Shown in pieces: positions 4,661 to 44,992 of a stretch of DNA of 64,000 bases. The DNA is taken from assembly GCA_009693985.1 (NCBI GenBank), contig SHWE01000001.1, forward strand, positions 1 to 64,000, in the 5' to 3' direction. The number at the start of each line of letters is the position of its first letter. Position 1 is the stretch's first letter. The notes under the pieces are model-generated. The model saw only the letters and a program-made list of their open reading frames with translations, was not told the origin of the DNA and did no database searches. Origin of the DNA: Alphaproteobacteria bacterium (GTDB taxonomy: Bacteria; Pseudomonadota; Alphaproteobacteria; Micropepsales; Micropepsaceae). Both the position numbers and the translations under genes were made by a program.

Positions 4661-4880
4661 GTCATTCTTCCGTTGACCGAAGCGCCCCAGCTCGGCGATA
4701 CGAAATTAGCGACGCCTCTCAACAGCGGCAAACCTTAACGGCGCGCGCGGCGCACGCTCCCATCGCGAAAAATCCTTTTAAATTGGGCTTTTTTGCAAGG
4801 CCTGTCCGTCGTATCATTAACCTAGAATGAGGATTTACCCCTGCGCGATAAGTCGCGGGTGGAATCGGGAGGAGGGTTCG

Positions 4881-6905
4881 ATGACTTCAATGCACAGCCG
4901 CGCGACTCTGATGGGCACGATTTCGACCGGCATCGTCGCCGCGGCGCTTGCCGTTGGCTCGGCCGAAGCGCGCATCGTGAAAATCGAAATCACGGCGAAG
5001 GAATCGCCGACCTTCGAAGGCAAGGCCTTCGGCGCCGCCGGCCAGTACGAGAAGCTGACGGGGCGCGCGCATGGTGAGCTCGATCCCAAGGATCCCAAGA
5101 ACGCGATCATCGTCGACATCCAGAACGCGCCCAAGAACGCGCGCGGGATGGTCGAATACGACACCGACATCACCATCCTGAAGCCGATCAACAACGCGAA
5201 CGGCAATCATCGCCTGTGGTTCGAGGTCAACAATCGCGGCAACACGCCGGCCTATTCGCTGATGAACGAAGCCGATCCCGATTTCAGCAAGGCGTTCACC
5301 GCCGCCGATGCCGGCAACGGCTTCCTGATGCGTCAGGGCTACACGATCCTCGAAGCCGGCTGGGATCCGGGCGCGCCCGCGACTCCCGGCGTCTTCGGCA
5401 TTCGCGTGCCGGTGGCGAAGAATGCCGACGGCTCGCCGATCACCGGCCCGTCGATGGAAGAATTCGTCATCGACGACGACAAGACGATGCAGGGACGGCT
5501 GACCTATGCGGCCGCCAATCTCGACAAGTCGAGGGCGACGCTGACGGTCAGGGCGCATTATCAGGATCAGCCGACCGTCGTTCCTGCCGACAAATGGCAG
5601 TATACGGACGAAAAAGGCACCGCCATCCGTCTGCTGCCGATGGGCACCGCCTTCCAGCAGGGCACGCTCTACAGCTTCGTCTATGAGGCCAAGGACCCGC
5701 AGGTCGGCGGCATCGGCTTCGCGGCGATCCGCGACGTCGGCTCGTTCTTCCGCAATGCCAGCGCCGACGAGGCCGGCACCGCGAACCCGCTCGCCGGCTC
5801 CATCCAATATGTGATGACCGCCTGCCAGTCGCAGCCTTGCCGTACGCTGCACGATTATCTCCATCTCGGCTTCAATCAGGACGAGACGGGCAAGAAGGTC
5901 GTCGACGGCATGTCGAATTGGATCGGCGGCTCGACCGGCATCTTCCTCAATTACCGCTTCGGCCAAAGCGGGCGCACCCATCGCCAGCACATCGCCCGCT
6001 GGTTCCCGGAAACGGGGCCCTACACCAATCAGGTGATGCTCGATCCCGTCACCGGAAAGCGCGACGGGCGGCTGGCGCGCTGCACGGCGTCCAACACCTG
6101 TCCGAAGATTTTCGAGACCAATTCGGCCAATGAATATTGGGCCAAGAACATGGCGGTCGGCCTCGTCGATACCAAGGGCAAGGACCTCACCAACGAGCCC
6201 GCCAATGTGCGCAATTATTTCATCTCATCCTTGCATCACGCCGGAGCCTTCCCGCAGCGCGGCAAGGGCGTCTGCCAGCAGGTGCGCAATCCGCTGACGC
6301 CGGTGACGGTGTTGCGCGCGCTCACCATCGCGATGGACGAATGGGTGACGAGCGACAAGGCGCCGCCGGCCAGCCGCGTGCCGAGCGCGAGTAAAGGCAC
6401 GCTGGTCACCTCGCTGCCGCAAACGGTGCAAGGGTTCCCGAAGCTTCAGGGCGTTGCTTACAATGGCCGCATGCATACGGGCGATCTGTATGATTTCGGC
6501 CCGAATTTCGACAAGGGCATCATCACCCAATTGCCGCCGAAGCTGGTCGGCACGCCCTATCCGGCGCTGGTTCCCAAGACCGATGCGGACGGCAACGACA
6601 TGGCGGGCATCCGCATCCCGGACGTCGCCGTTCCGGTCGCGACCTATACGGGCTGGGGCTTGCGTGCGGGCAGCGAGGACGGCTGCGACGCGGCGGGCCA
6701 GATGATCCCGTTCGCCAAGACCAAGGCCGAGCGCGAGATGGCGGGTGATCCGCGTCCGTCGCTGGCGGAGCGTTATCCCAGCCACGCCGATTACGTGACG
6801 AAAGTGTCGGCGGTGGCGAACGCGCTGAAGGCCGACCGTCTGATGCTGGATGAGGACGTCCAGGCCTTCACGAAGAAGGCGGAAGAGTCGGCCGTCGCGA
6901 AGTAG
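4881..6905 (+). CDS. Alpha/beta hydrolase domain protein (Abhydrolase_10-like), secreted
   Basis: ATG after GGAGGAGGG; RIVKIEITAKESPTFEGKAFGAAGQYEKLTGRAHGELDP...; paralog of 22009-23553. Confidence 0.75.
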   Translation: MTSMHSRATLMGTISTGIVAAALAVGSAEARIVKIEITAKESPTFEGKAFGAAGQYEKLTGRAHGELDPKDPKNAIIVDIQNAPKNARGMVEYDTDITILKPINNANGNHRLWFEVNNRGNTPAYSLMNEADPDFSKAFTAADAGNGFLMRQGYTILEAGWDPGAPATPGVFGIRVPVAKNADGSPITGPSMEEFVIDDDKTMQGRLTYAAANLDKSRATLTVRAHYQDQPTVVPADKWQYTDEKGTAIRLLPMGTAFQQGTLYSFVYEAKDPQVGGIGFAAIRDVGSFFRNASADEAGTANPLAGSIQYVMTACQSQPCRTLHDYLHLGFNQDETGKKVVDGMSNWIGGSTGIFLNYRFGQSGRTHRQHIARWFPETGPYTNQVMLDPVTGKRDGRLARCTASNTCPKIFETNSANEYWAKNMAVGLVDTKGKDLTNEPANVRNYFISSLHHAGAFPQRGKGVCQQVRNPLTPVTVLRALTIAMDEWVTSDKAPPASRVPSASKGTLVTSLPQTVQGFPKLQGVAYNGRMHTGDLYDFGPNFDKGIITQLPPKLVGTPYPALVPKTDADGNDMAGIRIPDVAVPVATYTGWGLRAGSEDGCDAAGQMIPFAKTKAEREMAGDPRPSLAERYPSHADYVTKVSAVANALKADRLMLDEDVQAFTKKAEESAVAK

Positions 6906-11223: not shown

Positions 11224-13164
11224 ATGACAAAGCGCAAAGACGGTACGGGCGCATCGCGGCGCGGATTCCTCAAAGGCGCGGGGCTGGCCGGCGCCGCCGC
11301 CATGGCCGCGCCGCTGAAGGCCGTCGCGGCGCAGCAAACGGCACCCGCGCGCGGCACGCCGCCGCTTCCCAATCGCGCCGCCGAAACCGCGCCGCCCGGA
11401 CCCGAAGTGCTGACGCAGGGCAAGAGCGGCGGCGACTTCATGATGGATGTCATCAAAAGCCTCGGCTTCGAATATATGGCGTCGAACCCGGCCTCTTCGT
11501 TCCGCGGCCTGCATGAATCGCTGATCAATTACGGCGGCAATGTGAACCCCGAATTCCTGACCTGCAGCCACGAGGAAATCTCGGTGGCGATGGGGCACGG
11601 CTATTTCAAGATCGAGGGCAAGCCGCTTCTCGTCATGGCGCACGGCACGGTCGGCCTGCATCACGCGACGATGGCGCTGTACAATTCCTGGTGCGACCGC
11701 GTGCCGGTCTATCTGATCATCGGCAACATCTTCGATTCGCAGATGCGCCGTCCGGGCATCGAATGGAATCACACAGCGCAAGATGCCGCCGCCATCGTCC
11801 GCGATTTCACGAAGTGGGACGATTATCCCGCTTCGCTGCAACACTTCGCCGAATCCTCGGTGCGCGCCTACAAGATCGCGATGACGCCGCCGACTCTACC
11901 GGTGGTGATTGTCGCCGACGGCGCGATGCAGGAAGACGACATGCCGGCGGGCGAGAATCCCGTCATCCCGAAGCTGCCGCAGATCAGCGTGCCGCAGGGT
12001 GAATCCGGCGCCGTCTCCGAAACCGCGCGGCTGCTGGTGAATGCGGAAGCCCCGGTGCTGGTCGCCGACCGCTATGCCCGCAGCCCGTCGGGCATCGGCG
12101 CCAAGATGCTGACCGAGCTTGCCGAGCTGCTGCAATGTCCGGTCATCGACACCAGCGGGCGCCTGAACATCGCCACGCGCCATCCGCTGCAACAGAGCGG
12201 CCGCGCTCGCGGACTCGTCAGGGGCGCCGATGTCGTGCTCGGCCTCGAGATGATCGATTACTGGAACACGCTGAACACCTATCGCGATCAGCTTCACCGT
12301 TCCTCGGAGCGGATCACAAAGGCGGGCGCCCGCACGCTCAGCATCGGTTCCGGCGATCTCTACATCAAATCGAACTATCAGGACTTTCAGCGCTTCCAGG
12401 AGGTCGATGTCGCGATGGCCGCCGACGCCGAGGCGACGATGCCTTCGCTGATCGAAGCGGTGAAGAAGCTCATCACGCCCGCGCACAAGGCGAATTACGA
12501 AGCGCGCGGCAAGCGCCACGCCGCCAATCATCTGGCCGATTACGAGAAGGCGAAGAGCGACGCCACCTATGGCTGGGACGCGAGCCCAGTCTCGACCGCG
12601 CGCCTTTCGATGGAAGTCTACAACGCGGTTCGGGGCGAAGACTGGTCGCTGGCCTCCCCGATGGCGCCGTACTCCTATTGGCCGCAACGCCTGTGGGCGA
12701 TGGAGAAGCCCTATCACTTCATCGGCGATGGCGGCGGCATGGGCATCGGCTATTGCGCGTCGGCCTCGCTCGGCGCGGCGCTCGCCAACCGCAAGCATGG
12801 GCGCTTCACCGTTTCGATCCAGCCCGACGGCGATCTTCTGATGACCATCGGCGCGTTGTGGACGGCGGCGCATCACAAGATTCCGCTGCTTTACGTCATG
12901 CACAACAATCGCGGCTACCATCAGGAAGTTATGCATGTGCAGCGCATCGCCAATCGCCGCATGCGCGGCCTCGACCGCGCCCATATCGGCACCACGCTGC
13001 GCGATCCCTTCGTCGATTACGCCAAGGTCGCCGAAGGCATGGGCGTTCACGGTATCGGCCCGATCACCGATCCCAAGGATTTGGGGCCTGCGCTGGCGCG
13101 CGCTGTCCCGATCGTCAAGTCGGGTCAGCCCGTTCTGATCGACGTCGTGACCCAAGGCCGATAG
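11224..13164 (+). CDS. Thiamine diphosphate-dependent enzyme with Tat signal
   Basis: SRRGFLKGAGLAGAAAMAAPLKAVAA; CSHEEISVAMGHGYFKIEGKPLLVMAHGTVGLHHAT; GDGGGMGIGYCASASLGAAL; DGDLLMTIGALWTAAHHKIPLLYVMHNNRGYHQE. Confidence 0.85.
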   Translation: MTKRKDGTGASRRGFLKGAGLAGAAAMAAPLKAVAAQQTAPARGTPPLPNRAAETAPPGPEVLTQGKSGGDFMMDVIKSLGFEYMASNPASSFRGLHESLINYGGNVNPEFLTCSHEEISVAMGHGYFKIEGKPLLVMAHGTVGLHHATMALYNSWCDRVPVYLIIGNIFDSQMRRPGIEWNHTAQDAAAIVRDFTKWDDYPASLQHFAESSVRAYKIAMTPPTLPVVIVADGAMQEDDMPAGENPVIPKLPQISVPQGESGAVSETARLLVNAEAPVLVADRYARSPSGIGAKMLTELAELLQCPVIDTSGRLNIATRHPLQQSGRARGLVRGADVVLGLEMIDYWNTLNTYRDQLHRSSERITKAGARTLSIGSGDLYIKSNYQDFQRFQEVDVAMAADAEATMPSLIEAVKKLITPAHKANYEARGKRHAANHLADYEKAKSDATYGWDASPVSTARLSMEVYNAVRGEDWSLASPMAPYSYWPQRLWAMEKPYHFIGDGGGMGIGYCASASLGAALANRKHGRFTVSIQPDGDLLMTIGALWTAAHHKIPLLYVMHNNRGYHQEVMHVQRIANRRMRGLDRAHIGTTLRDPFVDYAKVAEGMGVHGIGPITDPKDLGPALARAVPIVKSGQPVLIDVVTQGR

Positions 13165-13175
13165 GAGAAGCGACG

Positions 13176-13529
13176 ATGAAACGCATTTTGATTTTCGCTG
13201 CTCTGTTGGCTGTCGCAAGCGGCGCCGTTCTGGCCGCGCAAGCGTCCGGCGATGTCGCGAAGGGGCGGCAGGTCTATGTCGAAAAGGGCTGCGCCTATTG
13301 CCACGGCACGGTCGGGCAGGGCGGCGGCGGCCGCCTCGGCGGATTGCGGCTCGCCAATATGGGCATCGCTCTTCCGGCTTTCACGGAACAGCTGCGCCAT
13401 CCGCGCGATGAGATGCCGCCTTACGTGGAATCGGTGCTGCCCGACCGCGAGGTCGCCGACATCTTCGCCTATATCGGCTCGCTGCCGCCGCCACAGCCTG
13501 CGAGTTCGATTCCAATCTTGAACAGATAA
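13176..13529 (+). CDS. c-type cytochrome (class I-like), secreted
   Basis: MKRILIFAALLAVASGAVLA; GCAYCHG; RDEMPPYVESVLPDREVADIFAYIGSL. Confidence 0.9.
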   Translation: MKRILIFAALLAVASGAVLAAQASGDVAKGRQVYVEKGCAYCHGTVGQGGGGRLGGLRLANMGIALPAFTEQLRHPRDEMPPYVESVLPDREVADIFAYIGSLPPPQPASSIPILNR

Positions 13530-13603: not shown

Positions 13604-14806
13604 ATGCACGACGTCACCAGTTCTCACTGGCATGAGCCGAAAGGCTTCAAGAATGCGGGCTACGGCGCCTGGAAGCGGCCCAACACGCCCTATGACGATT
13701 TCATGGAGGCGCAAGGGATTCCGATCCACCGCGCCATCGGCGTCAAGCGCGTGCAGGATTTGCCGCTCAAATCCTGGGCGCGGATGGGCGGGCGCGGCAC
13801 CTTCATCCAGCTCTACGGCACCGAAGGGCTGTGGGGCGCCTATGTCGTCGAGGTGCCGGGGCGCGGCGCGCTGAACCCCGAGCGCCATATGTATGAGGAG
13901 ACCTTCCTCGTCGTCGATGGGCGCGGCACCACCGAAATCTGGAGCGATGACCATCCCAAGCCCCGCAGCTTCGAATGGGGCAGAGGCTCGATGTTCTCGG
14001 TGCCGCTCAATTGCTGGCACCGCATCGTCAATGCGGGCTCCGCGCCGGCGCTGATTCTCGTCGCGACCACAGCGCCCAACGTCATCAATCTCTTCCGCGA
14101 CCAGGAATGGATCTTCAATTGCCCGGTGGCGATCCCGTCGCGCTATGACGGGAGCGATGATTATTTCAAGCCGAAGGACGACATCGCGCCCGATCCCTTG
14201 CGCGGTCTTGCCATGCGCAAGACCAATCTCATTCCCGACATCTTCAACGCCGAGCTCTATCTCGATAACCGCCGCAGCCAGGGTTACAAGCGCATGGAGC
14301 CCAATATGGCGGGCAACGTGTTCTATCAATTCGTCGGCGAATATCTGACGGGGCAATATTCCAAAGCGCACGCCCACGCATCGGCCGCCGTGCTCGTCTG
14401 CATACGCGGCACCGGCTACACCTATACGTGGCCGCGCTCGGCGGGACTGACGCCGTGGAAAGACGGCAAGGGCGATGAAGTCTACAAACAGGAATATGAG
14501 CCGGTCGGCATGGTGACGGCGGCGCCCTATGGCGGCGACTGGTTCCATGCGCATTTCGGTACGAGTGTGGAGCCGTTGCGCCTGATCGGCTGGTACGGGC
14601 CCAACAATCACCGCGCGCACAAGCCGGGCCGGCCGGGCGAGAAGGCGATCGATGAAGGCGCCATCGACATCCGCGACGGCGGCACCGCCATTCCCTATTG
14701 GGACGAAGACCCGTTCATCCGCAAGGAATATGAAGAAATTCTGCGTGCGGGAGGCGTGCCGTCTCGGATGGACGCTTCTCTCTATGTGGACCCGTTGAAA
14801 GCCTGA
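13604..14806 (+). CDS. Bicupin protein, paralog 1
   Basis: MHDVTSSHWHEPKGFKNAGYG...; YSKAHAHASAAVLVCIRGTGYTYTWP; WFHAHFG; similar over its length to 25586-26806 and 34900-36117. Confidence 0.8.
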   Translation: MHDVTSSHWHEPKGFKNAGYGAWKRPNTPYDDFMEAQGIPIHRAIGVKRVQDLPLKSWARMGGRGTFIQLYGTEGLWGAYVVEVPGRGALNPERHMYEETFLVVDGRGTTEIWSDDHPKPRSFEWGRGSMFSVPLNCWHRIVNAGSAPALILVATTAPNVINLFRDQEWIFNCPVAIPSRYDGSDDYFKPKDDIAPDPLRGLAMRKTNLIPDIFNAELYLDNRRSQGYKRMEPNMAGNVFYQFVGEYLTGQYSKAHAHASAAVLVCIRGTGYTYTWPRSAGLTPWKDGKGDEVYKQEYEPVGMVTAAPYGGDWFHAHFGTSVEPLRLIGWYGPNNHRAHKPGRPGEKAIDEGAIDIRDGGTAIPYWDEDPFIRKEYEEILRAGGVPSRMDASLYVDPLKA

Positions 14807-22008: not shown

Positions 22009-23553
22009 ATGTCCATCTCGTTTCGCGTGACCGCCATCGCCGCGTTGCTTGCGGGCACCAGTCTCGCCGTGGACGCCGCGCCCCGCAACGCGACCGAATC
22101 TCGAATCACCGCGATCAGCGTGGCGGGCTCGCAACCGGTCGGCACCTATAATGGCGTCCGCTATTCGCGGACATTCGGAACGGTCACAGGAATCGTCGAT
22201 CCGAGCGAAGATGTGGTCGGGCTCGCGGGCGTCAAGAAGAACGCGCAGCGCCAGTTCGAATACACCACCGAGTTCGAGATCATCGCGCCTGCGGCCGGCC
22301 AGCCCGCCAACGAAGTCATCTTCATCGACTCCGAAAATCGCGGCAACGCCGTGATGCTCAACCTCATCAACGAGGCCGGTATGCAGGGCCCGCCGATGGC
22401 GGCGCGTTTCCGCGAAGGCCTGGGCAACGGTTTCCTCCAGCGCCACGCGACGTCTTACGCGCGCGTGCAATGGCAGGTGAAGATTTCCAAGGACGTGCCC
22501 GAAACCGCCCAAGGCATCGGCCTTGTCATCATGCGCGATTTCGCGCGGGCGCTGGGCGGCCACACCACGGCGCCGTCCGGCTACGCGCCCGCCATCTATC
22601 AGAAGATGATCCTGGGCGGAAAATCGCAGAGCTCGTGGTTCGTGAATTCCTTCATCGCCGAAGGATTCAATGTCGAGCCGATCACCGGCAAGGGCATCTT
22701 CCAGGGCGCGCTGTCGGTCGACGGCATCGGCCATTGGATGGCGCTGAACAAATACGCCGCCCGGAACAACGAGACGCAGCATCCCTATATCAAGCCCGAT
22801 GCGGCGCCGCTGACGCGGACCGAAATGTTAAGCCGTCCGGCGAGCGATCCCATCTTCATCGATACGGCGGCCTATACGGATTTCTACCGGCTGCGCGCCG
22901 GACTTACTTCGGCCGCGACGACGACGGCGAAATATCGCCGCTACGACATTCCGGGGCCGCACAGCCAGCAGCGTCCGCCGGTGACGAAAGAGACCTTCGA
23001 AGATTGCAACAACGGCCAGATGGTGCCGCTCAATCCGATCTTCATGTCGCCCTATATCCGCGCGCAAGTTCTGGGACTCGAAAAGGCGATGGGCGTGAAA
23101 GCCGCGCAAACGGGGCCGTCGTTGCCGCCGTCGGCGCCGTTCGAGCTTGGCCCCGCGCCGACGTCGCTTGCGAATTTCAATCCGCTCAAAGGCGCCGATG
23201 TGAAGGTGCCGCGCGTGGACGCCAACAACATGCCGCTCGGCGGCGTGCGCTTCCCCGACGCGGAATATCCGCTGGGCAAACCGCTGCCAGTGTCGCTGGC
23301 GCCGGTGATCACCACCTCGATCGACAACACTTGCGGCAATCGCGGCGCCTGGCAGCCCTTCACGGCCGTAGAGCTGAACGCGAAATATGGCTCCAAAGAG
23401 AAATATATCGCCCTCTATCGCACGGGCATCCAAAAACTGGTCGGGCAGGGCTTTCTGCTGGCCGAAGACGAGAAGGCGATGCTCGACTACGCATCCTATC
23501 TCTGGGATCACGCGGAGAATTATCTCGTCGCGGACAAGCAGGCCGCACGCTAA
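22009..23553 (+). CDS. Alpha/beta hydrolase domain protein (Abhydrolase_10-like), secreted
   Basis: MSISFRVTAIAALLAGTSLAVDA; FEIIAPAAGQPANEVIFIDSENRGN; related to 4881-6905. Confidence 0.75.
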   Translation: MSISFRVTAIAALLAGTSLAVDAAPRNATESRITAISVAGSQPVGTYNGVRYSRTFGTVTGIVDPSEDVVGLAGVKKNAQRQFEYTTEFEIIAPAAGQPANEVIFIDSENRGNAVMLNLINEAGMQGPPMAARFREGLGNGFLQRHATSYARVQWQVKISKDVPETAQGIGLVIMRDFARALGGHTTAPSGYAPAIYQKMILGGKSQSSWFVNSFIAEGFNVEPITGKGIFQGALSVDGIGHWMALNKYAARNNETQHPYIKPDAAPLTRTEMLSRPASDPIFIDTAAYTDFYRLRAGLTSAATTTAKYRRYDIPGPHSQQRPPVTKETFEDCNNGQMVPLNPIFMSPYIRAQVLGLEKAMGVKAAQTGPSLPPSAPFELGPAPTSLANFNPLKGADVKVPRVDANNMPLGGVRFPDAEYPLGKPLPVSLAPVITTSIDNTCGNRGAWQPFTAVELNAKYGSKEKYIALYRTGIQKLVGQGFLLAEDEKAMLDYASYLWDHAENYLVADKQAAR

Positions 23554-25585: not shown

Positions 25586-26806
25586 TCAAACGCCCTTGGG
25601 CAGTTCGCCCTTGAAGTTCTTGTCGTAGAACTCCGGCAGCATGCGCGACGGCACGCCGTTTTTCGCCATGTCCGCTTCCCAGTCCTTCTTCACCTCGGGG
25701 TCTTCCATCCAATAGGGAATGGCGGTGCCACCTTCGGTGATGTCCATGCCGGTGTAATCGATGTGCTTCTCGCCTGGCGGGCCGGGTTCGCGCCCCGGAT
25801 TGTGCGGGCCGAACCATGCCATCAGGCGCAAGGGTTCCTTGGAAACCCCGAAGTGCTGGTGATACCAGCGCGCGCCGCCGGGTGCCGCCGAGATCATGCC
25901 GACCGGCTCGTAATCGATGCGCTTGATCTGGTCCTCGTTGCCGTCCTTCCAGGGCGAGGTGCCGAGCCGTTCGGGCCAGGTGTGCGTGTAGCCCTTGCCC
26001 TTGATGCAGATGAGCACGGCGGCGGAGGTGTGCGCATGCGCCTTGGAATAGCGACCGTTCTCGTGCTGGCCGATCCAGAAATAGAAGCTGTTGCCGGTCA
26101 TGAACGGTTCGACGCGCCGGAAACCGGGCGAGCGGCGATTGTCGAGCGGCAGATCGCAATTCACCGCATCGGGCACGAAATTGGTCCGCCGCATGGCGAG
26201 CCCGCGCACGGGATCGGGCTCGACATCGTCATTATATTTGTAGAAATCGTCGGCGCCGGAGAAACGATCGCGGAACTGCATCGGGCAATCGAAGATCGCA
26301 TTCGTCGATTGCAGCGCGTTCATCGTCACCGGCGCGGTGGTGCCGGCCAGCAGCAGCGCAGGGCCCGAACCCGCATTGACGATGCGATGCCAGGCGTTGA
26401 GCGGAATCGAAAATAGCGAGCCGGCCTGCCACTCGAAAGTGTGGCGCTTGGTATCGCCCTCGAGCCAGACTTCGGTTGTGCCGCGCCCTTCCGCCACGAA
26501 GACGATCTTCTCATAGAGATGCTTCTCGGGGTTGAGTGCGCCGCGCCCCGGCACTTCCACCAGGTAGCAACCCCATTTCGTTTCCGTGCCGTGAAGCTGG
26601 ATATAAGTGCCGCGCCCACCGGTGCGTTTCCAGGGTTGCAACGGCAAATTGCGCACATTGCCGATGCCGATGTCGCGGAAACAGGGAATGCCTTCGGAAT
26701 CCATGAACAGATCGTAGGGCGTCTTCACGCGCCCCCATTTGCCGAGACCGGCGCGCTGCCCCGCTTTGGGCTCGTGCCAATGGGTTTTCGTCGCGACGTC
26801 GTGCAT
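25586..26806 (-). CDS. Bicupin protein, paralog 2
   Basis: MHDVATKTHWHEPKAGQRAGLGKWGRVKTPYDLFMDSEGIP...; YSKAHAHTSAAVLICIKGKGYTHTWP; WYHQHFG. Confidence 0.8.
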   Translation of the reverse strand: MHDVATKTHWHEPKAGQRAGLGKWGRVKTPYDLFMDSEGIPCFRDIGIGNVRNLPLQPWKRTGGRGTYIQLHGTETKWGCYLVEVPGRGALNPEKHLYEKIVFVAEGRGTTEVWLEGDTKRHTFEWQAGSLFSIPLNAWHRIVNAGSGPALLLAGTTAPVTMNALQSTNAIFDCPMQFRDRFSGADDFYKYNDDVEPDPVRGLAMRRTNFVPDAVNCDLPLDNRRSPGFRRVEPFMTGNSFYFWIGQHENGRYSKAHAHTSAAVLICIKGKGYTHTWPERLGTSPWKDGNEDQIKRIDYEPVGMISAAPGGARWYHQHFGVSKEPLRLMAWFGPHNPGREPGPPGEKHIDYTGMDITEGGTAIPYWMEDPEVKKDWEADMAKNGVPSRMLPEFYDKNFKGELPKGV

Positions 26807-33603: not shown

Positions 33604-34890
33604 TCAAACCGTCGTGTGCGCGGCGCCTTCTTTCGCGGCGAGCGCATCGAGTGCCGCCGTCGCGAAGGGCTGATCGGGCCCGAGCACGATGGCGGCCGAC
33701 CGCACCCGCTGATGCACGGGTTCGACGCCGGGTGGCGCCGTTCCCTGTTCCACCAGCGCCTTCGCCGCACGGATCAGGCGGCGGCGCGCCATCACGATGC
33801 CCTTGTCGGTGCCGACGAGATTCTCCCGCGAGCGGTCGACGATGGTGCCCATGCTTTCCTGGATCGATGCATCCTGCATCGCGAAGCCTTCGACGCCGCC
33901 ATAGGAGCGGCCGCGTTTTTGTGCCGCGCGGTCGATCAGATAATCATTGTCCTTATTCGCCGTCGGGCGGAACGTCACCGGATCGACCACGGTGTGGATG
34001 CCTGCGCCGTTCTTCATCTGCTCGACGAGCTCGGGTTCCAGCGGCGATGTTACGCGATAGTCGAAGCTCCAGGTCCAGCAATTCTCATCGTCGCGTGGAA
34101 TGAAAAAATGCCCGTGCACCGGATGATTGCCGCGCGGCGGGATCATCGTGAAGGCCGGCATCACCCATTGCGTGATGCGCCAATAGAAATTGCCGTTGTC
34201 GGCGTTGCGCCGCGCGCCGATATAGAGCCCGCCCGGGCTTTCCACGACGTCGAACACCGGCATCAGGTCGCCCATATTGTATTGATTGCCCTTGGCGCCC
34301 TTGAACACCGGATCGGTTTCGAGATCGCCGCGGTGCAGGAACGAGACATGGCTGGAATCGATGCCGCCTTCGAGCGCCTGTAGCCAATTGCATTCCTGCC
34401 AGCGCTTGGAGACGAAACGGTGCGCATCGGGCACCAGTGTGAATTCCCATTCGGGCAGCGGCGGCTGGCGATCCGACGGACCCATATAGGTCCACAGGAT
34501 TCCGCCGCGTTCGATCAGCGGATAGCCCGTCAGCTTAATGCGCTGGCAATGCGTGCTGCCGGCCAGCTCCGACGGGATTTCGACGCATTGGCCGGTGACG
34601 TCGTATTTCCAGCCATGATAGGGGCAGCGCAATCCGTTCTCTTCATTGCGCCCGAACCATAGCGACACGCGCCGGTGGGCGCAGAATTCCTCGATCAGGC
34701 CAAGCTTGCCGCTCGAATCGCGGAACGCGATCAGCTTCTCCGACAGAAGCTCGCAACGCACCGGCGGGCAATCGTTCTCGGGCAATTCCGATGACAGCAG
34801 CGCCGGAATCCAATAGGCGCGAAACATCTGGCCCATCGGCGTGCCGGGGCCGGTGCGCGTGACGAATTCGTTCTGTTCCTTGACCAGCAT
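33604..34890 (-). CDS. Rieske ring-hydroxylating oxygenase, phthalate 4,5-dioxygenase-like oxygenase component
   Basis: Rieske CAHRRVSLWFGRNEENGLRCPYHGWKYD; GGIDSSHVSFLHR. Confidence 0.85.
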   Translation of the reverse strand: MLVKEQNEFVTRTGPGTPMGQMFRAYWIPALLSSELPENDCPPVRCELLSEKLIAFRDSSGKLGLIEEFCAHRRVSLWFGRNEENGLRCPYHGWKYDVTGQCVEIPSELAGSTHCQRIKLTGYPLIERGGILWTYMGPSDRQPPLPEWEFTLVPDAHRFVSKRWQECNWLQALEGGIDSSHVSFLHRGDLETDPVFKGAKGNQYNMGDLMPVFDVVESPGGLYIGARRNADNGNFYWRITQWVMPAFTMIPPRGNHPVHGHFFIPRDDENCWTWSFDYRVTSPLEPELVEQMKNGAGIHTVVDPVTFRPTANKDNDYLIDRAAQKRGRSYGGVEGFAMQDASIQESMGTIVDRSRENLVGTDKGIVMARRRLIRAAKALVEQGTAPPGVEPVHQRVRSAAIVLGPDQPFATAALDALAAKEGAAHTTV

Positions 34891-34899
34891 AGGGCGCTC

Positions 34900-36117
34900 C
34901 TATTCCGCCGCCGATTTGACCTTGGCGCCCGTCACATACCATTCGGGCAGCATGCGCGGTTGCACGCCTTCGCGTTTCAAGGTGTCCATATATTCCTGAG
35001 TGATGTGCGGGTCTTCCATCCAATAGGGAATGGAGGTGCCGCCTTCGGGAATGTCCATCCCGGTGTAGTCGGTGTGCTTCTCGCCGGGCGGGCCGGGTTC
35101 GCGTCCGGGCGAGTGCGGCCCGAACCACGCGGTCAGCCGCAAGGGCTCTTTCGACACGCCGAAATGCTGGTGATACCAGCGCGCGCCACCGGGGGCGGCC
35201 GACACCAGGCCGACCGGCTCGTAATCGATGCGCTGAACCTGGTCGCCCTTGCCGTCCTTGAACGGCGTGACGCCGGCGCGCTCCGGCCAAGTATAGGTGT
35301 AGCCCTTGCCCTTGAGGCAGATCAGCACCGCCGCCGATGTGTGCGCGTGCGCCTTGGAATAGCGGCCGTTCTCGTGCTGCGCGATCCACAGATAGAAGCT
35401 GTTGCCCGTCATGAAGGGTTCGATGCGCCGGTAGCCGGGCGAACGGCGATTGTCGAGCGGCAGATCGCAATTGACGATGTCGGGAATGAAATTGGTCCGC
35501 CGCATCGCGAGCCCGCGCACCGGATCGGCTTCGACGTCTTCTTTGTACTTGTAGAAATCCGCGTCGGTCGAGAAACGGTCTTGGAATTTGTAGGACGAGT
35601 CGAAGATCGCGCCGACATTGTTCAGAAGGTTCATCAGATTGGGCGCGGTCGTGCCGGCCAGCAGAAGCGCCGGCGACGAGCTCGCATTGACGATGCGGTG
35701 ATAGGTGTTGACCGGAATCGAGAACATCGATCCCGCCTGCCATTCGAAGATCTGCTTCTTGCCGCTTTCTTCGAGCCAGACTTCGGTCGAGCCGCGCCCT
35801 TCGACGACGTAGAAGATCTTCTCGTAGAGATGCTTCTCGACGTTAAGCGCGCCGGCGCCCGGCACTTCGACGATGTAACAGCCCCATTTGCCTTCGGTGC
35901 CGTAGAGCTGGATGTAGCTGCCGCGCCCGCCGACGCGCTTCCAGGGCTGCATCGGCAGGTCCTGCACGCGGCGCACGCCGAGCCCGCGGAAAATCGGGAT
36001 GCCTTCGGACTCCATGAAGGCGTCATAGGGCGTGACGGGACGCTTGAACGTGCCGAACCCCGCGCGCTTCTCGCCGGAGGGTTCGTGCCAATGGCTCTTG
36101 TCGGTGAGGTCGTGCAA
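34900..36117 (-). CDS. Bicupin protein, paralog 3
   Basis: MHDLTDKSHWHEPSGEKRAGFGTFKRPVTPYDAFMESEGIP...; YSKAHAHTSAAVLICLKGKGYTYTWP; WYHQHFG. Confidence 0.8.
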   Translation of the reverse strand: MHDLTDKSHWHEPSGEKRAGFGTFKRPVTPYDAFMESEGIPIFRGLGVRRVQDLPMQPWKRVGGRGSYIQLYGTEGKWGCYIVEVPGAGALNVEKHLYEKIFYVVEGRGSTEVWLEESGKKQIFEWQAGSMFSIPVNTYHRIVNASSSPALLLAGTTAPNLMNLLNNVGAIFDSSYKFQDRFSTDADFYKYKEDVEADPVRGLAMRRTNFIPDIVNCDLPLDNRRSPGYRRIEPFMTGNSFYLWIAQHENGRYSKAHAHTSAAVLICLKGKGYTYTWPERAGVTPFKDGKGDQVQRIDYEPVGLVSAAPGGARWYHQHFGVSKEPLRLTAWFGPHSPGREPGPPGEKHTDYTGMDIPEGGTSIPYWMEDPHITQEYMDTLKREGVQPRMLPEWYVTGAKVKSAAE

Positions 36118-36780: not shown

Positions 36781-37470
36781 GTGAGCGTGGTCGTCCGCAA
36801 CATAAACCGGGTGGCCCCGGAAACGGTCGCTGGCTATGCCGGGATCGGCGTCGCTACCGTGCACGAAGCGCAAGGGAGGAAGGGTCTGCTCGCCTCCAAC
36901 ATGCGGCCGATCTACCGCCCGGTCCACATTGCCGGACCCGCCGTCACCTGCGAGGTCGCGCCGGGCGACAATTGGATGCTCCACGTCGCGGTCGAACAGT
37001 GCCAGAAAGGCGACATCCTCGTCGTCGCGCCGTCGAGCCCGTGCGAGGACGGCTATTTCGGCGAGCTGATCGCGACCCAATTGAAGCTGCGCGGCGTCAA
37101 GGGGTTGATCCTCGAAACCGGTTGCCGCGACATCGCCGAACTGACCAAGATGGAATTTCCGGTGTGGTCGAAAGCGGTCTTCGCGCAGGGCACGGTCAAG
37201 GAAACGGTCGGCGACGTGAACCTGCCGCTCGTCTGCGCCGGGCAATTGATCAATCCGGGCGATTTGATCGTCGCCGACGATGACGGCGTCGTGGTGGTGC
37301 GGCGCAAAGAGGCGGCCGATGTTCTGAAGATGAGCATCGAGCGCGAAAAGAAGGAAGCGCAAAGCCGCGAGCGTTATCTACGCGGCGAACTGAGTCTGGA
37401 CGTTGCCAATATGCGCGGGCGCCTGGCCGAGAAGGGCCTCAAATATATCGACACCCCCGCGAAGGATTGA
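36781..37470 (+). CDS. ligK: 4-carboxy-4-hydroxy-2-oxoadipate aldolase/RraA-family protein (GTG start)
   Basis: RraA-like: VHEAQGRKGLLASNMRPIYRPVHIAGPAVTCEVAPGDNWMLHVAVEQCQKGDILVV...GYFGELIATQLKLRGVKGLILETGCRD; lies in the lig cluster. Confidence 0.8.
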   Translation: MSVVVRNINRVAPETVAGYAGIGVATVHEAQGRKGLLASNMRPIYRPVHIAGPAVTCEVAPGDNWMLHVAVEQCQKGDILVVAPSSPCEDGYFGELIATQLKLRGVKGLILETGCRDIAELTKMEFPVWSKAVFAQGTVKETVGDVNLPLVCAGQLINPGDLIVADDDGVVVVRRKEAADVLKMSIEREKKEAQSRERYLRGELSLDVANMRGRLAEKGLKYIDTPAKD

Positions 37471-37477
37471 TCCGGGC

Positions 37478-38377
37478 ATGGCCGCTTTCTCGCGCGTCGC
37501 ACTGATCGGGTTTGGCGAGGTCGGGCAGACCCTCGGCGCCGATCTGTTGGCGGCTTGTGCGAGCGTGGCGGCTTACGATGTGCTGTTCGCGCGTGCCGAC
37601 AGCGCGCCGTCGCGTGCGCTGGCGAACATTCGGTTGCGCGCGGCGAAATCGGCACAAGAAGCGGTGAGGAGCGCGGAACTCGTCATCAGCGCGGTGACCG
37701 CGGCCTCCGACGTCGATGCGGCGAAGAGCGTCGTGCCTGAATTGGAGAAGGGTGCGTTCTATCTCGACCTCAATTCCGTCTCGCCGGGCGTTAAGCAGGC
37801 TTGCGCGAAAATCATCGAAGAGGCGGGCGGCCGTTACGTCGAAGCCGCAGTGATGACGCCGATCGCACCCAAACGCATCGCCTCTTCGATGCTGCTCGGC
37901 GGACCGCACGGCGCGGAATTTCAGATGCGCGCCGCGCCAACCGGGTTCACCGGCGCGAAAGTGTTTTCGCCCATTATCGGTCAGGCTTCGGCCACCAAGA
38001 TGTGCCGCAGCGTGATCATCAAAGGAATAGAATCCCTGCTCGCCGAATCCATGCTGACGGCGCGCCATTACGGCGTCGAAAAAACGGTGCTCGATTCCCT
38101 CTCCGATCTCTTGCCGGCGGGCGATTGGGAAAAGATCGCGACCTATTTCATCTCACGCACACTCGAGCACGGCACGCGCCGCGCCGAAGAGATGCGCGAG
38201 GCCGCCGAGACGGTTCACGAAGCCGGACTGGAACCATTGATGGCGAACGCCACCGCGATGCGCGAAGATTGGGCGGCACAATTCAAATCCGCTCTCACCG
38301 AAACCAATCTCGGCGCCATGCTCGACGCCATCCGCAACGACATCGAAAAACAGGCCGCGCGGAAGGCCGCCGAATAA
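37478..38377 (+). CDS. NAD(P)-binding 6PGDH-like / DUF1932 protein
   Basis: VALIGFGEVGQTLGADLLA...; C-terminal DUF1932-like KMCRSVIIKGIESLLAESMLTARHYGVE. Confidence 0.8.
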   Translation: MAAFSRVALIGFGEVGQTLGADLLAACASVAAYDVLFARADSAPSRALANIRLRAAKSAQEAVRSAELVISAVTAASDVDAAKSVVPELEKGAFYLDLNSVSPGVKQACAKIIEEAGGRYVEAAVMTPIAPKRIASSMLLGGPHGAEFQMRAAPTGFTGAKVFSPIIGQASATKMCRSVIIKGIESLLAESMLTARHYGVEKTVLDSLSDLLPAGDWEKIATYFISRTLEHGTRRAEEMREAAETVHEAGLEPLMANATAMREDWAAQFKSALTETNLGAMLDAIRNDIEKQAARKAAE

Positions 38378-38390
38378 TCAGGGGACATCA

Positions 38391-39410
38391 ATGATCATCG
38401 ATTGCCACGGCCATTACACGACGGAACCCAAGCCCCTGATGGATTTCCGTCAGAGACAGACCGCCGCCTTCAAGGACAAGGCGAAATTGCCGTCCTTTGC
38501 TGAGGTGAAGATCAGCGACGATGAATTCCGCGACAGCGTTTCCGGCAATCAATTGCGCATCCAGAAGGAGCGCGGCACGAACCTGACGCTGTTCTCACCG
38601 CGCGCGTCCGGCATGGGCCATCACGTCGGAGATGCCGAAGTCTCCTTGCAATGGTCGCGCGCCTCCAACGATTGCATCCATCGCGTTTGTACCCTCTACC
38701 CCGAGAACTTCATCGGGGTTTGCCAACTCCCGCAATCGCCGGGCGTTGCGCCGGAGAATTGCATTCCCGAACTCGAACGCTGCGTGAAGGAGCTGGGCTT
38801 CGTCGGCTGCAATCTCAATCCCGATCCGTCGGGCGGAAGCTGGACCGCGCCGCCGCTGACCGACCGTCATTGGTACAAGCTCTATGAGAAGATCGTCGAG
38901 CTCGACGTGCCGGCGATGGTCCATGTCAGCATGTCGTGCAATCCCGCCTTTCACACGACGGGCGCGCATTACATCAATGCCGACACGACGGCATTCATGC
39001 AGCTCATCACCGCCGATCTGTTCAAGGACTTCCCGACGCTGCGGCTGATCATTCCGCATGGTGGCGGCGCGGTACCCTATCATTGGGGCCGCTATCGGGG
39101 CCTGGCGCAAAATCTCAACCGGCCGCCGCTGCACGAGATGATGAAGAACAATGTCTTTTTCGACACCTGCGTCTACCACCAGCCGGGAATCGACCTGCTC
39201 GCCAAGCTGATCCCCGCCGACAATATTCTCTTCGCCTCCGAAATGCTGGGCGCGGTGAAGGGCGATGATCCGACGACGGGCAAGCCCTATGACGACACCA
39301 AGCGCTATGTCGATGCGCTGCCTCTCGATGCTGGGGACAAGCGCAAGATCTTCGAGACCAACGCGTTGAAGGTCTATCCGCGGCTCAAGCAGAGGCTCGG
39401 CGTGCATTGA
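38391..39410 (+). CDS. ligJ: 4-oxalomesaconate hydratase-like amidohydrolase
   Basis: MIIDCHGHYTTEPKPLMDFRQRQ...; context. Confidence 0.85.
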   Translation: MIIDCHGHYTTEPKPLMDFRQRQTAAFKDKAKLPSFAEVKISDDEFRDSVSGNQLRIQKERGTNLTLFSPRASGMGHHVGDAEVSLQWSRASNDCIHRVCTLYPENFIGVCQLPQSPGVAPENCIPELERCVKELGFVGCNLNPDPSGGSWTAPPLTDRHWYKLYEKIVELDVPAMVHVSMSCNPAFHTTGAHYINADTTAFMQLITADLFKDFPTLRLIIPHGGGAVPYHWGRYRGLAQNLNRPPLHEMMKNNVFFDTCVYHQPGIDLLAKLIPADNILFASEMLGAVKGDDPTTGKPYDDTKRYVDALPLDAGDKRKIFETNALKVYPRLKQRLGVH

Positions 39411-40288
39411 ACAAGAATTCCAATCCGCCCTATATCCCGTTTCATCCGAACCCGTCGAAGCCGCGCTTTCAGCCGCCGGCGGGCGCGGTGGATTCGCATT
39501 GTCATGTCTTCGGGCCGGCGTCGCGCTTTCCCTATGCGGCGGAACGCAAATACACGCCCGTCGATGCGCCCAAGGAAAAGCTGTTCGCCCTGCGCGATTT
39601 TCTCGGCTTCGACAAGAACGTCATCGTGCAGGCGAGCTGCCACGGCACCGACAATGCGGCGCTCGTCGATGCGCTGGTCAATTCCAACAACAAAGCGCGC
39701 GGTGTCGCAACCGTTGGCGAACAGACGAGCAAGCAGGAGCTGCAAGCGCTCGACAAAGCGGGCGTGCGCGGCGTGCGCTTCAATTTCGTCAAGCGCCTGG
39801 TCGATTTCACCCCGCGCGACGTGCTGGAGAAGATCGCCGCCACCATCGCGCCTATGGGCTGGCACATCGTCGTTTATTTCGAGATGCCGGATCTGCCCGA
39901 GTTGGAATCCTTTTTCACTGCGCTGCCGACGCTCGTCGTCGTCGATCACATGGGCCGTCCCGACGTGAAGAAGGGCATCGACCATCCCGAGTTCCAGCGC
40001 TACCTCAAGCTGCTCGATGCCCACGACAACATCTGGAGCAAAGTCTCATGTCCCGAGCGGCTGACGTCGCAAGGCGCGCCCTATGACGATGTCGTGCCCT
40101 TCGCGCGCGCCCTCGTCGAACGCTATCCAAATCGCGTGCTGTGGGGCACCGACTGGCCACACCCGAACATGCCGGTCGAAGCGCCCGACGACGGCGTTCT
40201 CGTCGATGTGATCCCGAGGATTGCCCGTAACCCCGAGTTGCAAGAGGCGCTGCTTGTCCACAATCCGATGGCGCTCTATTGGAGTTAG
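39407..40288 (+). CDS. ligI: 2-pyrone-4,6-dicarboxylate lactonase-like amidohydrolase (TTG start overlapping previous stop)
   Basis: AVDSHCHVFGPASRFPYAAERKYTPVDAP...VLWGTDWPHPNMP. Confidence 0.9.
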   Translation: MNKNSNPPYIPFHPNPSKPRFQPPAGAVDSHCHVFGPASRFPYAAERKYTPVDAPKEKLFALRDFLGFDKNVIVQASCHGTDNAALVDALVNSNNKARGVATVGEQTSKQELQALDKAGVRGVRFNFVKRLVDFTPRDVLEKIAATIAPMGWHIVVYFEMPDLPELESFFTALPTLVVVDHMGRPDVKKGIDHPEFQRYLKLLDAHDNIWSKVSCPERLTSQGAPYDDVVPFARALVERYPNRVLWGTDWPHPNMPVEAPDDGVLVDVIPRIARNPELQEALLVHNPMALYWS

Positions 40289-40291
40289 GCC

Positions 40292-41528
<1,237 letters not shown>

Positions 41529-41543
41529 CATCAGGGGACGAAC

Positions 41544-42500
41544 ATGAAGATTTGCGTAGTGGGCCAAGGCGCCTTCGGTCAGAAGCATTTGGATGCGTTA
41601 AAGCGCATACCGGGCGTCGAAGTGACGTCGCTCATCGGGGGCAATCCGCAAGGCACCGAGGACGTCGCCAAGAAATACGGCGTTCCCCATTGGGGCCACG
41701 ACCTTGCCGAAGGCATCAAACGCGCCGACGCTGTGATCCTGGCGACGCCGACCCAGATGCACCGCGCGCAAGGCGAGCAGGTGATGCGCGCCGGCAAGCA
41801 TGTGCTGATCGAGATTCCCATCGCCGACAATGTCGAAGATTCCGAAGCATTGGCGCGGGTCGCGAAGGAAACCGGGGTTGTCGCGATGGCGGGCCATGTG
41901 CGCCGCTTCAATCCGAGTCATCAATTCGTCCATCGCCGCATCCAGAAGGGCGAGCTGAAAATCCAGCAGATGGACGTGCAGACCTATTTCTTCCGCCGCA
42001 CCAACATCAACGCGGCGGGCAAGCCCCGCAGCTGGACCGATCATTTGCTCTGGCATCATGCCGCGCACACGGTCGATCTCTTCCATTTCCAGACCGGCGA
42101 AACGGCGACGGAGATTTCCGCGGTGCAGGGGCCGCGCCATCCGACGCTCGGCATCGCGATGGATATGGCGATCCTGTTGAAGGTGCCGTCGGGCGCGATT
42201 CTGACGCTGTCGCTGTCGTTCAACAATGACGGGCCGATCGGCTCGTTCTTCCGCTATATCGGCGATACCGCGACCTATCAGGCCTATTACGACGATCTTG
42301 CCGACGGCAAGAAAAATCCCATCGATCTTTCCAAGGTCGACGTGTCGATGGACGGCATCGAGCTCGAGGACCGCGAATTTATCGCTGCGATCAACGAGAA
42401 GCGCGAGCCCAATGGCAGTCTGGCGCAGGTGCTGCCCTGCATGCGGGTGCTGGGCAAGATCGAGTCGCTGATCGATCCTAGCCGCGAATGCGTGATGTGA
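41544..42500 (+). CDS. ligC: 4-carboxy-2-hydroxymuconate-6-semialdehyde dehydrogenase-like
   Basis: MKICVVGQGAFGQKHLDALKRIPGVEVTSLIGGNPQGTEDVAKKYGVPHWGHDL. Confidence 0.9.
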   Translation: MKICVVGQGAFGQKHLDALKRIPGVEVTSLIGGNPQGTEDVAKKYGVPHWGHDLAEGIKRADAVILATPTQMHRAQGEQVMRAGKHVLIEIPIADNVEDSEALARVAKETGVVAMAGHVRRFNPSHQFVHRRIQKGELKIQQMDVQTYFFRRTNINAAGKPRSWTDHLLWHHAAHTVDLFHFQTGETATEISAVQGPRHPTLGIAMDMAILLKVPSGAILTLSLSFNNDGPIGSFFRYIGDTATYQAYYDDLADGKKNPIDLSKVDVSMDGIELEDREFIAAINEKREPNGSLAQVLPCMRVLGKIESLIDPSRECVM

Positions 42501-43489
42501 TGCAGAAACGCCAGCTGGGTCTGTTTTCGGTTTCCGCCATCGGCCTTGGCTGCATGAATCTCAGTCACGCCTATGGCACGCCGCCCGATGCGAAGATTGC
42601 GGGCGATGTGCTGCTGAAGGCGCTCGATCTCGGCTACACGCATTTCGATACGGCGGCGCTTTACGGTTTCGGCGCCAATGAGACGCTGCTCGGCAATGTG
42701 CTGAAGATCCGGAGCGGCGAATTCATGCTGGCGAGCAAATGCGGCATGTTCCGCGATGCCGAAGGCAAGCGAGAGATCGACGCCCGCCCGCATGTGCTCA
42801 AGAAAACCTGCGAAGATTCGCTGAAGCGCCTGCAAACCGATGTGATCGACCTTTATTATCTTCACCGCTGGCAGAAGACGATTCCGATCGAGGAGAGCAT
42901 CGGCGCGCTCGCCGATCTGGTGCGCGAGGGCAAAATCAAGGCTATCGGGCTTTCCGAAGTCTCCGCCGATACGCTGATGAAGGCGCATCGCGTACACCCC
43001 ATCGCCGCGTTGCAGACCGAATATTCGCTGTGGACGCGCAATGCGGAAATCGCCGTGCTGGCGGCCTGCAAGAAGATCGGCGCCGCCTTCGTCGCCTTCA
43101 GTCCCATCGCGCGCGGCTTTCTCGGCGGTGAGTTGCGCGATGTGACGGTCCTGCCGCCGAAGGACATTCGCCTTCCGATGCCGCGCTTTCAGGGCGAGAA
43201 TTTCGCCAAGAATTTGAAGCTGCTCGACGGCTTTTCGAAGCTGGCCCGCGAGAATGATTGCACGATGGCGCAATTGTCGCTCGCCTGGCTGCTGGCGCAA
43301 GGTGATCATGTGATCCCCATTCCCGGCACCACGCGGATCGATCATCTTGCCGAGAACGCCGCCGCCCCCGATGTGAGATTGAGCACCGAAACGCTGGCCC
43401 GCCTCGACGCGCTCATTAATCCCAATACGGTCAGCGGCCTGCGTTACCCGGCGGCGGTGCAAGCAGAAATCGACACGGAAGGGGCCTAA
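42500..43489 (+). CDS. Aldo/keto reductase
   Basis: AIGLGCMNLSHAYG; FDTAALYGFGANETLLG; TGATG overlap with ligC. Confidence 0.9.
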   Translation: MQKRQLGLFSVSAIGLGCMNLSHAYGTPPDAKIAGDVLLKALDLGYTHFDTAALYGFGANETLLGNVLKIRSGEFMLASKCGMFRDAEGKREIDARPHVLKKTCEDSLKRLQTDVIDLYYLHRWQKTIPIEESIGALADLVREGKIKAIGLSEVSADTLMKAHRVHPIAALQTEYSLWTRNAEIAVLAACKKIGAAFVAFSPIARGFLGGELRDVTVLPPKDIRLPMPRFQGENFAKNLKLLDGFSKLARENDCTMAQLSLAWLLAQGDHVIPIPGTTRIDHLAENAAAPDVRLSTETLARLDALINPNTVSGLRYPAAVQAEIDTEGA

Positions 43490-43494
43490 GAACG

Positions 43495-44922
43495 ATGGAC
43501 AGCACCCGTCTCAATCGCTTCGTCGGTCAAATCTGGGACGATGCCGTCGTCCCTTCGCTCGTCGATTATATCCGCATCCCCAACAAATCGCCGTCCTTCG
43601 ATCCCGATTGGGCCGCGCATGGCTATATGGACGATGCGGTAAAGTTGATGGAGGCGTGGGCGCGCGCCCGCATCGCACCCATCAAAGGCGCCACGCTCGA
43701 AGTGGTGCGATTGGAAAAACGCACGCCGGTCATCTTCATCACCATCCCGGGCGAGGGCACCGAACCGGTGCTGCTCTACGGCCATCTCGACAAGCAGCCC
43801 GAATTCACCGGCTGGGCCGAAGGGCTCGGGCCGTGGACGCCGGTGATCAAGGGCGACAAATTATACGGGCGGGGCGGCGCCGATGACGGCTATGCGATGT
43901 ATGGCGCGCTCTCCGCCGTTCTGGCGCTGCACGATCAGGGCGTCAAACACGCGCCCTTGCGCATCATCATCGAAGCCTGCGAAGAATCCGGCAGCTACGA
44001 TCTTCCCTTCTATGTCGATCATTTGGCTCCGCGTATCGGGTCGCCAGGCCTCGTGGTGTGCCTCGATTCCGGCTGCGGCGATTACGACCGGCTGTGGCTG
44101 ACGACCTCCTTACGCGGGCTTGCCACGGCGACGCTGACCGTCCGTGTACTGACCGAAGGCGTCCATTCCGGGGATGCCTCCGGCATCGTCCCGTCATCTT
44201 TCCGCATCGCGCGGATGCTGCTGTCGCGGCTGGAAGATCAAGACACCGGCGAGATCATCCCGCGCGGGTTCTATGTCGACATCCCGAAAAGCCGGCTAAC
44301 CCAGGCGACGGAAGCGGCTGCGATCCTGAACAAGGATGTTTACGCGAAATTCCCCTTCGCCGGCGCGACGAAGCCGATGGCGGACGACCCGACGGAGCTC
44401 ATCCTCAACCGCACCTGGCGGCCGCAGCTTGCCGTCGTCGGCGCGGCCGGGATGCCGGCACCGGCCAATGCCGGCAATGTGCTGTTGCCCTCGACGACGC
44501 TGAAACTCTCCTTGCGGCTGCCGCCGACCCTTAAGGGCAACGATCCCATCGCGCTGATGCGCCAGACCCTCGCCAGCGATCCGCCCTATGGCGCGGAAGT
44601 CCGCGTCGACGCCGATCCTTTCGTGTCGGCGGGTTGGAATGCGCCGGAGCTTGCGCCGTGGCTGGAACAGTCGCTGATGGGGGCGGGCCGCGCCGTATTC
44701 GGCCATGACGTCGCCTATATGGGCGAAGGCGGCAGCATTCCCTTCATGGGCATGCTGGGCGAGAAATTCCCCAAGACCCAGTTCGTCATTACGGGCGTGT
44801 TGGGTCCGGGATCGAACGCGCACGGGCCGAACGAATTCCTCCACATCCCGACGGGCAAGCGCATTTCGCAAGCCATCGCGATGGTGCTCGCGGATCATTG
44901 CGCGAAATCGTCCGCGCATTGA
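43495..44922 (+). CDS. M20-family peptidase/amidohydrolase
   Basis: PVLLYGHLDKQPEFTGW; LYGRGGADDGYAMYGALSAV; IIIEACEESGS. Confidence 0.9.
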   Translation: MDSTRLNRFVGQIWDDAVVPSLVDYIRIPNKSPSFDPDWAAHGYMDDAVKLMEAWARARIAPIKGATLEVVRLEKRTPVIFITIPGEGTEPVLLYGHLDKQPEFTGWAEGLGPWTPVIKGDKLYGRGGADDGYAMYGALSAVLALHDQGVKHAPLRIIIEACEESGSYDLPFYVDHLAPRIGSPGLVVCLDSGCGDYDRLWLTTSLRGLATATLTVRVLTEGVHSGDASGIVPSSFRIARMLLSRLEDQDTGEIIPRGFYVDIPKSRLTQATEAAAILNKDVYAKFPFAGATKPMADDPTELILNRTWRPQLAVVGAAGMPAPANAGNVLLPSTTLKLSLRLPPTLKGNDPIALMRQTLASDPPYGAEVRVDADPFVSAGWNAPELAPWLEQSLMGAGRAVFGHDVAYMGEGGSIPFMGMLGEKFPKTQFVITGVLGPGSNAHGPNEFLHIPTGKRISQAIAMVLADHCAKSSAH

Positions 44923-44942
44923 CGATGCCGGCGCAAACAAAA

Positions 44943-44966
44943 AGCGGCGCCGTTTCCAGCGCCGCT
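44943..44966. terminator. Hairpin between convergent genes
   Basis: AGCGGCGC-CGTTTCCA-GCGCCGCT. Confidence 0.6.
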
Positions 44967-44992
44967 CTTCGTCAAATCACCTTACTTCGGCG

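Follow-up and report, generated by a model that had tools for sequence, protein, structure and literature searches.

The 64,000-nucleotide stretch of DNA analysed here (referred to as the window) encodes a ThDP-dependent enzyme that carries a Tat signal and is directly followed by the gene for a small c-type cytochrome. Export of the enzyme by Tat and a role of the cytochrome as its dedicated partner are both well supported and, like the integrity of the cofactor site, rest on sequence, whereas three further elements are inferences: that electrons are transferred between the two proteins, that no flavin is involved and that the substrate is a 2-oxo acid. With moderate confidence we propose that the enzyme resides in the periplasm, where it would oxidise a 2-oxo acid (or a related ketone) and pass the electrons to this cytochrome. 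The features of the enzyme gene are given below; conservation counts refer to the Tat-bearing homologs (Tat clade) and to a cytoplasmic, Tat-less sister clade.

11224..13164, + strand: ThDP-dependent enzyme of the benzoylformate decarboxylase/acetolactate synthase superfamily, predicted to be Tat-exported, 646 aa (Pfam, PDB profile, AF2/Foldseek)
11224..11331, + strand: predicted Tat signal peptide, residues 1-36, RR at 12-13, cleavage inferred between VAA and QQ (TIGR01409; conserved R12/R13/F15)
11572..11574, + strand: E117, ThDP-activating catalytic glutamate, aligns with Glu47 of benzoylformate decarboxylase (BFD); E in 88/89 Tat-clade and 33/33 sister sequences
11641..11643, + strand: H140, aligns with the active-site His70 of BFD; 87/89 Tat-clade and 33/33 sister sequences
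11770..11772, + strand: H183, invariant histidine (89/89 and 33/33), probable active-site residue, role inferred
12826..12909, + strand: Mg-ThDP motif D535-G536-D537 ... N561-N562; D535, G536, N561 and N562 invariant in both clades
12925..12927, + strand: E568, invariant acid; E in 89/89 Tat-clade versus D in 33/33 sister sequences

The reading frame extends from the ATG at 11224 to the TAG at 13162-13164, and its product begins MTKRKDGTGASRRGFLKGAGLAGAAAMAAPLKAVAAQQ. The HEE and DGD...NN cofactor-binding features described in an earlier note on this DNA are present (H116-E117-E118, D535-G536-D537 and N561-N562), in matching frames and at matching coordinates. Of the Pfam domains, TPP_enzyme_C reaches 89.2 bits and TPP_enzyme_N 53.9, each above its cut-off, and TPP_enzyme_M (30.0 bits) falls marginally below its cut-off of 30.4. 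Comparison with PDB profiles returned BFD as the top match (E 3e-37), and the AlphaFold2 model (pLDDT 81, pTM 0.82) was matched by Foldseek to glyoxylate carboligase, 2-hydroxyacyl-CoA lyase, acetolactate synthase, benzaldehyde lyase and BFD. With its domains, catalytic glutamate and Mg-ThDP motif the protein belongs to the ThDP decarboxylase (DC/ALS) superfamily, and it is expected to work as a dimer or tetramer. No NCBIfam family reached its cut-off, the best being an unnamed 'thiamine pyrophosphate-requiring protein' (176 versus 456 bits). More specific assignments were rejected, namely benzoylformate decarboxylase (NF005485, 113.2 bits against a cut-off of 493), pyruvate oxidase (NCBIfam models far below cut-off) and acetolactate synthase or glyoxylate carboligase (curated models far below cut-off, FAD-site motifs absent). 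An Rfam scan of the window gave no match, and a promoter and terminator scan found nothing beyond what shuffled sequences produce.

The amino terminus combines an SRRxFL-type motif, a hydrophobic stretch and an AxA-like site, the features of a Tat substrate from which export itself is inferred. Its first 67 residues score 20.9 bits with the NCBIfam model TIGR01409 (TAT_signal_seq, cut-off 16.7) and 18.8 with Pfam TAT_signal, which is below the cut-off of 22.7; the N-terminus of one cytoplasmic sister protein had no match in the Tat-signal model search. R12, R13 and F15 are invariant across 56 aligned full-length homologs, and RRx[FL] together with a hydrophobic stretch is found in essentially all homologs with a complete 5' end, L023 being the sole ambiguous case. 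The Tat signal proposed in the earlier note therefore withstands both the TIGR01409 search and the comparison of homologs, and its conservation, the lack of which would have refuted the proposal, extends to the tree described below, on which the Tat state changes a single time.

The second gene of the pair lies on the same strand behind an 11-nt spacer:

13163..13167, + strand: AGGAG Shine-Dalgarno sequence of the cytochrome gene, overlapping the stop codon of the ThDP gene (sequence)
13176..13529, + strand: secreted monohaem class I c-type cytochrome, 117 aa (Cytochrome_CBB3, Cytochrom_C)
13290..13304, + strand: haem c site C39-A-Y-C42-H43 (CxxCH in 89 aligned partner cytochromes)
13413..13415, + strand: M80 in a conserved MPP(Y/F) motif, probable axial haem ligand (MP in at least 90% of 89 cytochromes)

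Its frame opens with the ATG at 13176, ends with a stop at 13529 and contains GCAYCHG, just as had been read from the sequence beforehand. From the overlap of the Shine-Dalgarno sequence with the preceding stop codon we infer that translation of the two genes may be coupled. Cytochrome_CBB3 (41.9 bits) and Cytochrom_C (35.5 bits) both score above their Pfam cut-offs, and among solved structures bc1-complex cytochrome c and CcoP domains come closest. The protein meets the features of a class I c-type cytochrome, with CxxCH, a distal methionine, a single haem and a signal peptide (the last recognised by eye); the assignment of M80 as axial ligand is by analogy to this class.

To place the pair among its relatives, 84,980 species genomes were scanned for homologs of the ThDP protein with a pattern-based search, which is biased to closer relatives. 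The scan yielded 76 loci from Rhizobiales, Xanthobacteraceae, Burkholderiales, Comamonadaceae, Limnohabitans and Acidobacteria, most of them at 46-64% identity. In 74 of the 76 the gene that immediately follows the enzyme, in the same orientation, codes for a CxxCH protein, the exceptions being L067 and L077, in the latter of which the matched reading frame is broken. A tree of 128 rows, including paralogs and sister-clade genes, was built under LG+G4 with a quick search, so that support is modest. The cytochrome is present in 84 of its 89 Tat rows and missing from three (L009, L067, L114), the other two being cut off; none of the 33 sister rows has one, with two again cut off. In other words, an adjacent downstream cytochrome accompanies 84 of 87 assessable Tat-clade genes versus 0 of 31 assessable Tat-less sister genes, which answers in the affirmative the question of conserved linkage on which the earlier proposal also depended. 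Cytochrome presence changes four times on the tree, once at the base and once each in L009, L067 and L114. A second copy at L077, whose start falls at a contig end, is basal on the tree and has the cytochrome. With one gain and linked inheritance, the genomes carrying the pair are not independent trials.

The two genes also duplicate as one unit. Tandem head-to-tail pairs occur in the window's genus, four of them in L104 (6319-15955) and three each in L105 and L106. The spacers between enzyme and cytochrome genes mostly measure 4-17 nt. Pairwise distances of enzymes and cytochromes correlate over 89 pairs (r = 0.82; largest of 500 permutations 0.21) as well as over 20 paralogs of one genus (r 0.75; largest of 2000 permutations 0.28). 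At the level of sequence distances this match shows a stable partnership, which is not in itself proof of contact.

The distribution of the family was surveyed in 92 genomes of the window's taxonomic family, 386 of its class and 398 of its phylum. In the window's genus each of the seven genomes carries 3-10 copies; elsewhere in the family a single copy is present in five of 85 genomes, and the remainder of the class sample has mainly the Tat-less kind of gene. The phylum-wide sample gave no match at a strict threshold beyond the window genome, and the family is thus patchy rather than core; a phage collection contained no homologs. Besides the window copy, the window genome (2.0 Mb, 64% complete) carries five more Tat-clade copies, one of 59% identity on contig C53 at C53:27637, two of about 49% on C51, one of 50% on C41 and a C-terminal fragment on C9, as well as two copies (39% and 34%) without Tat signal and cytochrome. 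The C53 paralog (L009:6638-10212) has kept the Tat signal and lacks an adjacent cytochrome; two glyoxalase/VOC-family proteins begin 9 nt downstream of it. The presence of several diverged copies per genome suggests several substrates. On plasmid p3 of Caballeronia zhejiangensis a Tat-clade homolog (48% identical) has as neighbours a ring-hydroxylating dioxygenase and genes of the lower aromatic pathway; a 206-aa, two-haem version of the cytochrome follows 8 nt behind it, and the pair carries the locus tags LDZ23_RS29905-RS29910. On a plasmid of Novosphingobium sp. KACC 22771 a homolog of 45% identity is accompanied by a second cytochrome reading frame downstream. The extra c haem in series on both plasmids looks like what is expected of an outgoing electron chain. 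As these genes are found on sequenced plasmids of named strains, the idea is directly testable.

A survey of 138 neighbouring genes for clues to the substrate revealed no constant gene beyond the pair; the commonest other neighbours were TctC receptors (11/138) and FAD_binding_3 monooxygenases (8/138). Immediate flanks are not conserved, those of the window copy differing even from those of its 77% ortholog L102. In the window's genus several arrays adjoin an Amino_oxidase-family flavoprotein and an SBP_bac_3 (amino-acid-type binding) protein (L010:6961-11185, L105:11282-14716, L106:2091-6023, L103:1-1445). The flavoprotein carries a Tat signal in L010, and L010, L105 and L106 also encode a pair of small proteins (about 110-150 aa), which in L106 match no Pfam family. 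Among the loci examined this cluster was not found outside the genus. It is compatible with 2-oxo acids being made in the periplasm by oxidation of amino acids or amines, and we take the binding protein to resemble the XoxJ-like partners of quinoproteins.

The window contains many genes for the degradation of aromatics, encoding LigA and LigB, amidohydrolases and an oxygenase of the LigXa type. At 36781-45000 a cluster of the protocatechuate 4,5-cleavage type encodes an RraA-like aldolase, two amidohydrolases, LigA and LigB consecutively, which suggests that the host degrades lignin-derived aromatics. A Rieske oxygenase with a LigXa C-terminal domain is encoded at 33604-34890; the LigXa family includes 5,5'-dehydrodivanillate demethylase. 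Three similar proteins of about 400 aa starting with (M)HDxxxxxHWHEP are found at 13604-14806, directly behind the ThDP-cytochrome pair, at 25586-26806 and at 34900-36117, with a cupin domain in both of those scanned, and two secreted-looking Abhydrolase_10 (PF20091) proteins are located at 4827-6905 and 22009-23553.

Within the Tat clade H116, H183, D187, K197, D535, G536, N561, N562 and E568 are invariant. E568 (in the pattern NNxGYxxE) is presumably, by analogy, the second catalytic acid known from pyruvate decarboxylase. Alignment with the acetohydroxyacid synthase (AHAS) of the same genome places ADR and GLExxDxW where AHAS has the FAD-site motifs SGGGI and GSRFDDRVTG. Owing to this replacement the enzyme is expected to lack the cofactor and is probably flavin-free, although this remains an argument from sequence alone.

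In the proposed scheme, the enzyme would fold and be loaded with ThDP and Mg in the cytoplasm before Tat export, and the cytochrome would leave through Sec and acquire its haem in the periplasm. There, ThDP would attack the keto group of a 2-oxo acid (or a related alpha-dicarbonyl or hydroxyketone), and decarboxylation or cleavage would leave an electron-rich adduct, to be oxidised in two one-electron steps by the adjacent class I cytochrome c. The product would be released as a carboxylic acid, and the electrons would pass from the cytochrome to the oxidase chain. We regard this direction of flow, from the ThDP adduct to haem, as the most economical and a reasonably probable reading, electron transfer itself being inferred. 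More tentatively, and with somewhat less than even confidence, the family could form a class of periplasmic respiratory dehydrogenases, in which a flavin-free Tat-exported ThDP enzyme reduces haem c directly from the adduct and the arrays serve different 2-oxo acids or aromatic alpha-ketones.

Several points weigh against oxidation coupled to the cytochrome. There is no biochemistry behind it, the gene neighbourhood yields no consistent substrate, and no natural fusion of enzyme and cytochrome was seen among the examined loci. The three Tat copies without an adjacent cytochrome, including the 59% paralog of the window copy, imply that a cytochrome might serve an enzyme encoded elsewhere (in trans), or that the enzyme can do without it. 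Moreover, neither the closest characterised relatives (BFD, benzaldehyde lyase, catabolic ALS) nor the closest solved ones are oxidative enzymes, and this lends weight to the main rival, a periplasmic non-oxidative decarboxylase, lyase or carboligase that releases an aldehyde for a separate periplasmic dehydrogenase to oxidise, the cytochrome being the acceptor of the latter. The conserved BFD-type histidine and E568 could favour protonation of the adduct, and the cytoplasmic sisters function without a cytochrome, several of them adjoining an NAD(P)-dependent reductase of the beta-hydroxyacid dehydrogenase type. However, no aldehyde dehydrogenase is regularly adjacent (Aldedh family, 5/138 neighbours), and the sole constant neighbour is the cytochrome, co-duplicated with the enzyme; we consider this rival unlikely, if a serious one.

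The remaining alternatives fare worse. A PoxB-like oxidase, with an FAD in the central domain relaying electrons from ThDP to the cytochrome, would fit the existence of that domain and the presence of FAD-binding glyoxylate carboligase and AHAS among the nearest folds, but the replaced FAD-site motifs and the low scores of the pyruvate oxidase models make it improbable. That the cytochrome instead feeds electrons to the enzyme, or has an unrelated role in oxygen protection or structure, draws on the copies lacking a cytochrome gene and on the fact that the direction of flow is itself inferred; it is rendered very improbable by the resemblance of the small CBB3-type monohaem cytochrome to respiratory cytochrome domains, by the added haem domain or gene in the two plasmid hosts and by the strongly reducing nature of ThDP adducts. 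Chance adjacency or an annotation artefact, with an unused Tat-like N-terminus, can appeal to the Pfam TAT_signal score, yet with TIGR01409 passed and both linkage and signal kept over dozens of loci in Alphaproteobacteria, Betaproteobacteria and Acidobacteria it is scarcely tenable, and chance adjacency of the two genes is contradicted by the homolog survey.

Taken as an oxidase with its own cytochrome, the pair looks like a previously undescribed extracytoplasmic route for the oxidation of small organic acids; the open full-text literature, which leaves out most subscription journals, yielded no description of such a module. In textbooks, ThDP decarboxylases and carboligases are enzymes of the cytoplasm. 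If the proposal is true, ThDP joins PQQ, flavin and molybdenum as a cofactor type for periplasmic organic oxidation, and genes now labelled only 'thiamine pyrophosphate-binding protein' gain a function. We know of no thiamine-to-haem electron route, and the module, if flavin-free, would be the first.

Among known systems, BFD (MdlC) shares the three-domain ThDP fold and the aligned pairs E117/Glu47 and H140/His70, but the window enzyme is only about 20% identical to it, Tat-exported by prediction and paired with a cytochrome. Functionally, the enzyme would be an analogue of PoxB and other pyruvate oxidases in linking ThDP-dependent 2-oxo acid oxidation to the respiratory chain. PoxB is an FAD enzyme on the cytoplasmic side that uses quinone, whereas the window enzyme has no FAD motif, is inferred to be periplasmic and has a cytochrome partner. 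A mechanistic analogue is provided by pyruvate:ferredoxin oxidoreductase, in which a metal cofactor oxidises the ThDP adduct in one-electron steps; it differs in its iron-sulphur clusters, its use of CoA, its cytoplasmic site and its architecture. The cytoplasmic ThDP sister clade (31-39% identical; L012, L013, L115, L116, L146) has the same core with E117, H140, H183 and DGD...NN, but differs from the Tat clade in lacking Tat signal and cytochrome and in carrying D for E568 and W for N384. Its genes at L012, L115, L116 and L146 are clustered with TctABC-type transporter and beta-hydroxyacid-dehydrogenase-like genes, sometimes with two ThDP paralogs, and constitute an uncharacterised carboxylate pathway. 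In organisation, the pair resembles the quinoprotein systems (XoxF/XoxG with XoxJ), where a periplasmic dehydrogenase has its own small cytochrome c and, as in the window's genus, a family-3 binding protein nearby; these, however, use PQQ in place of ThDP, and the catalytic subunits are unrelated.
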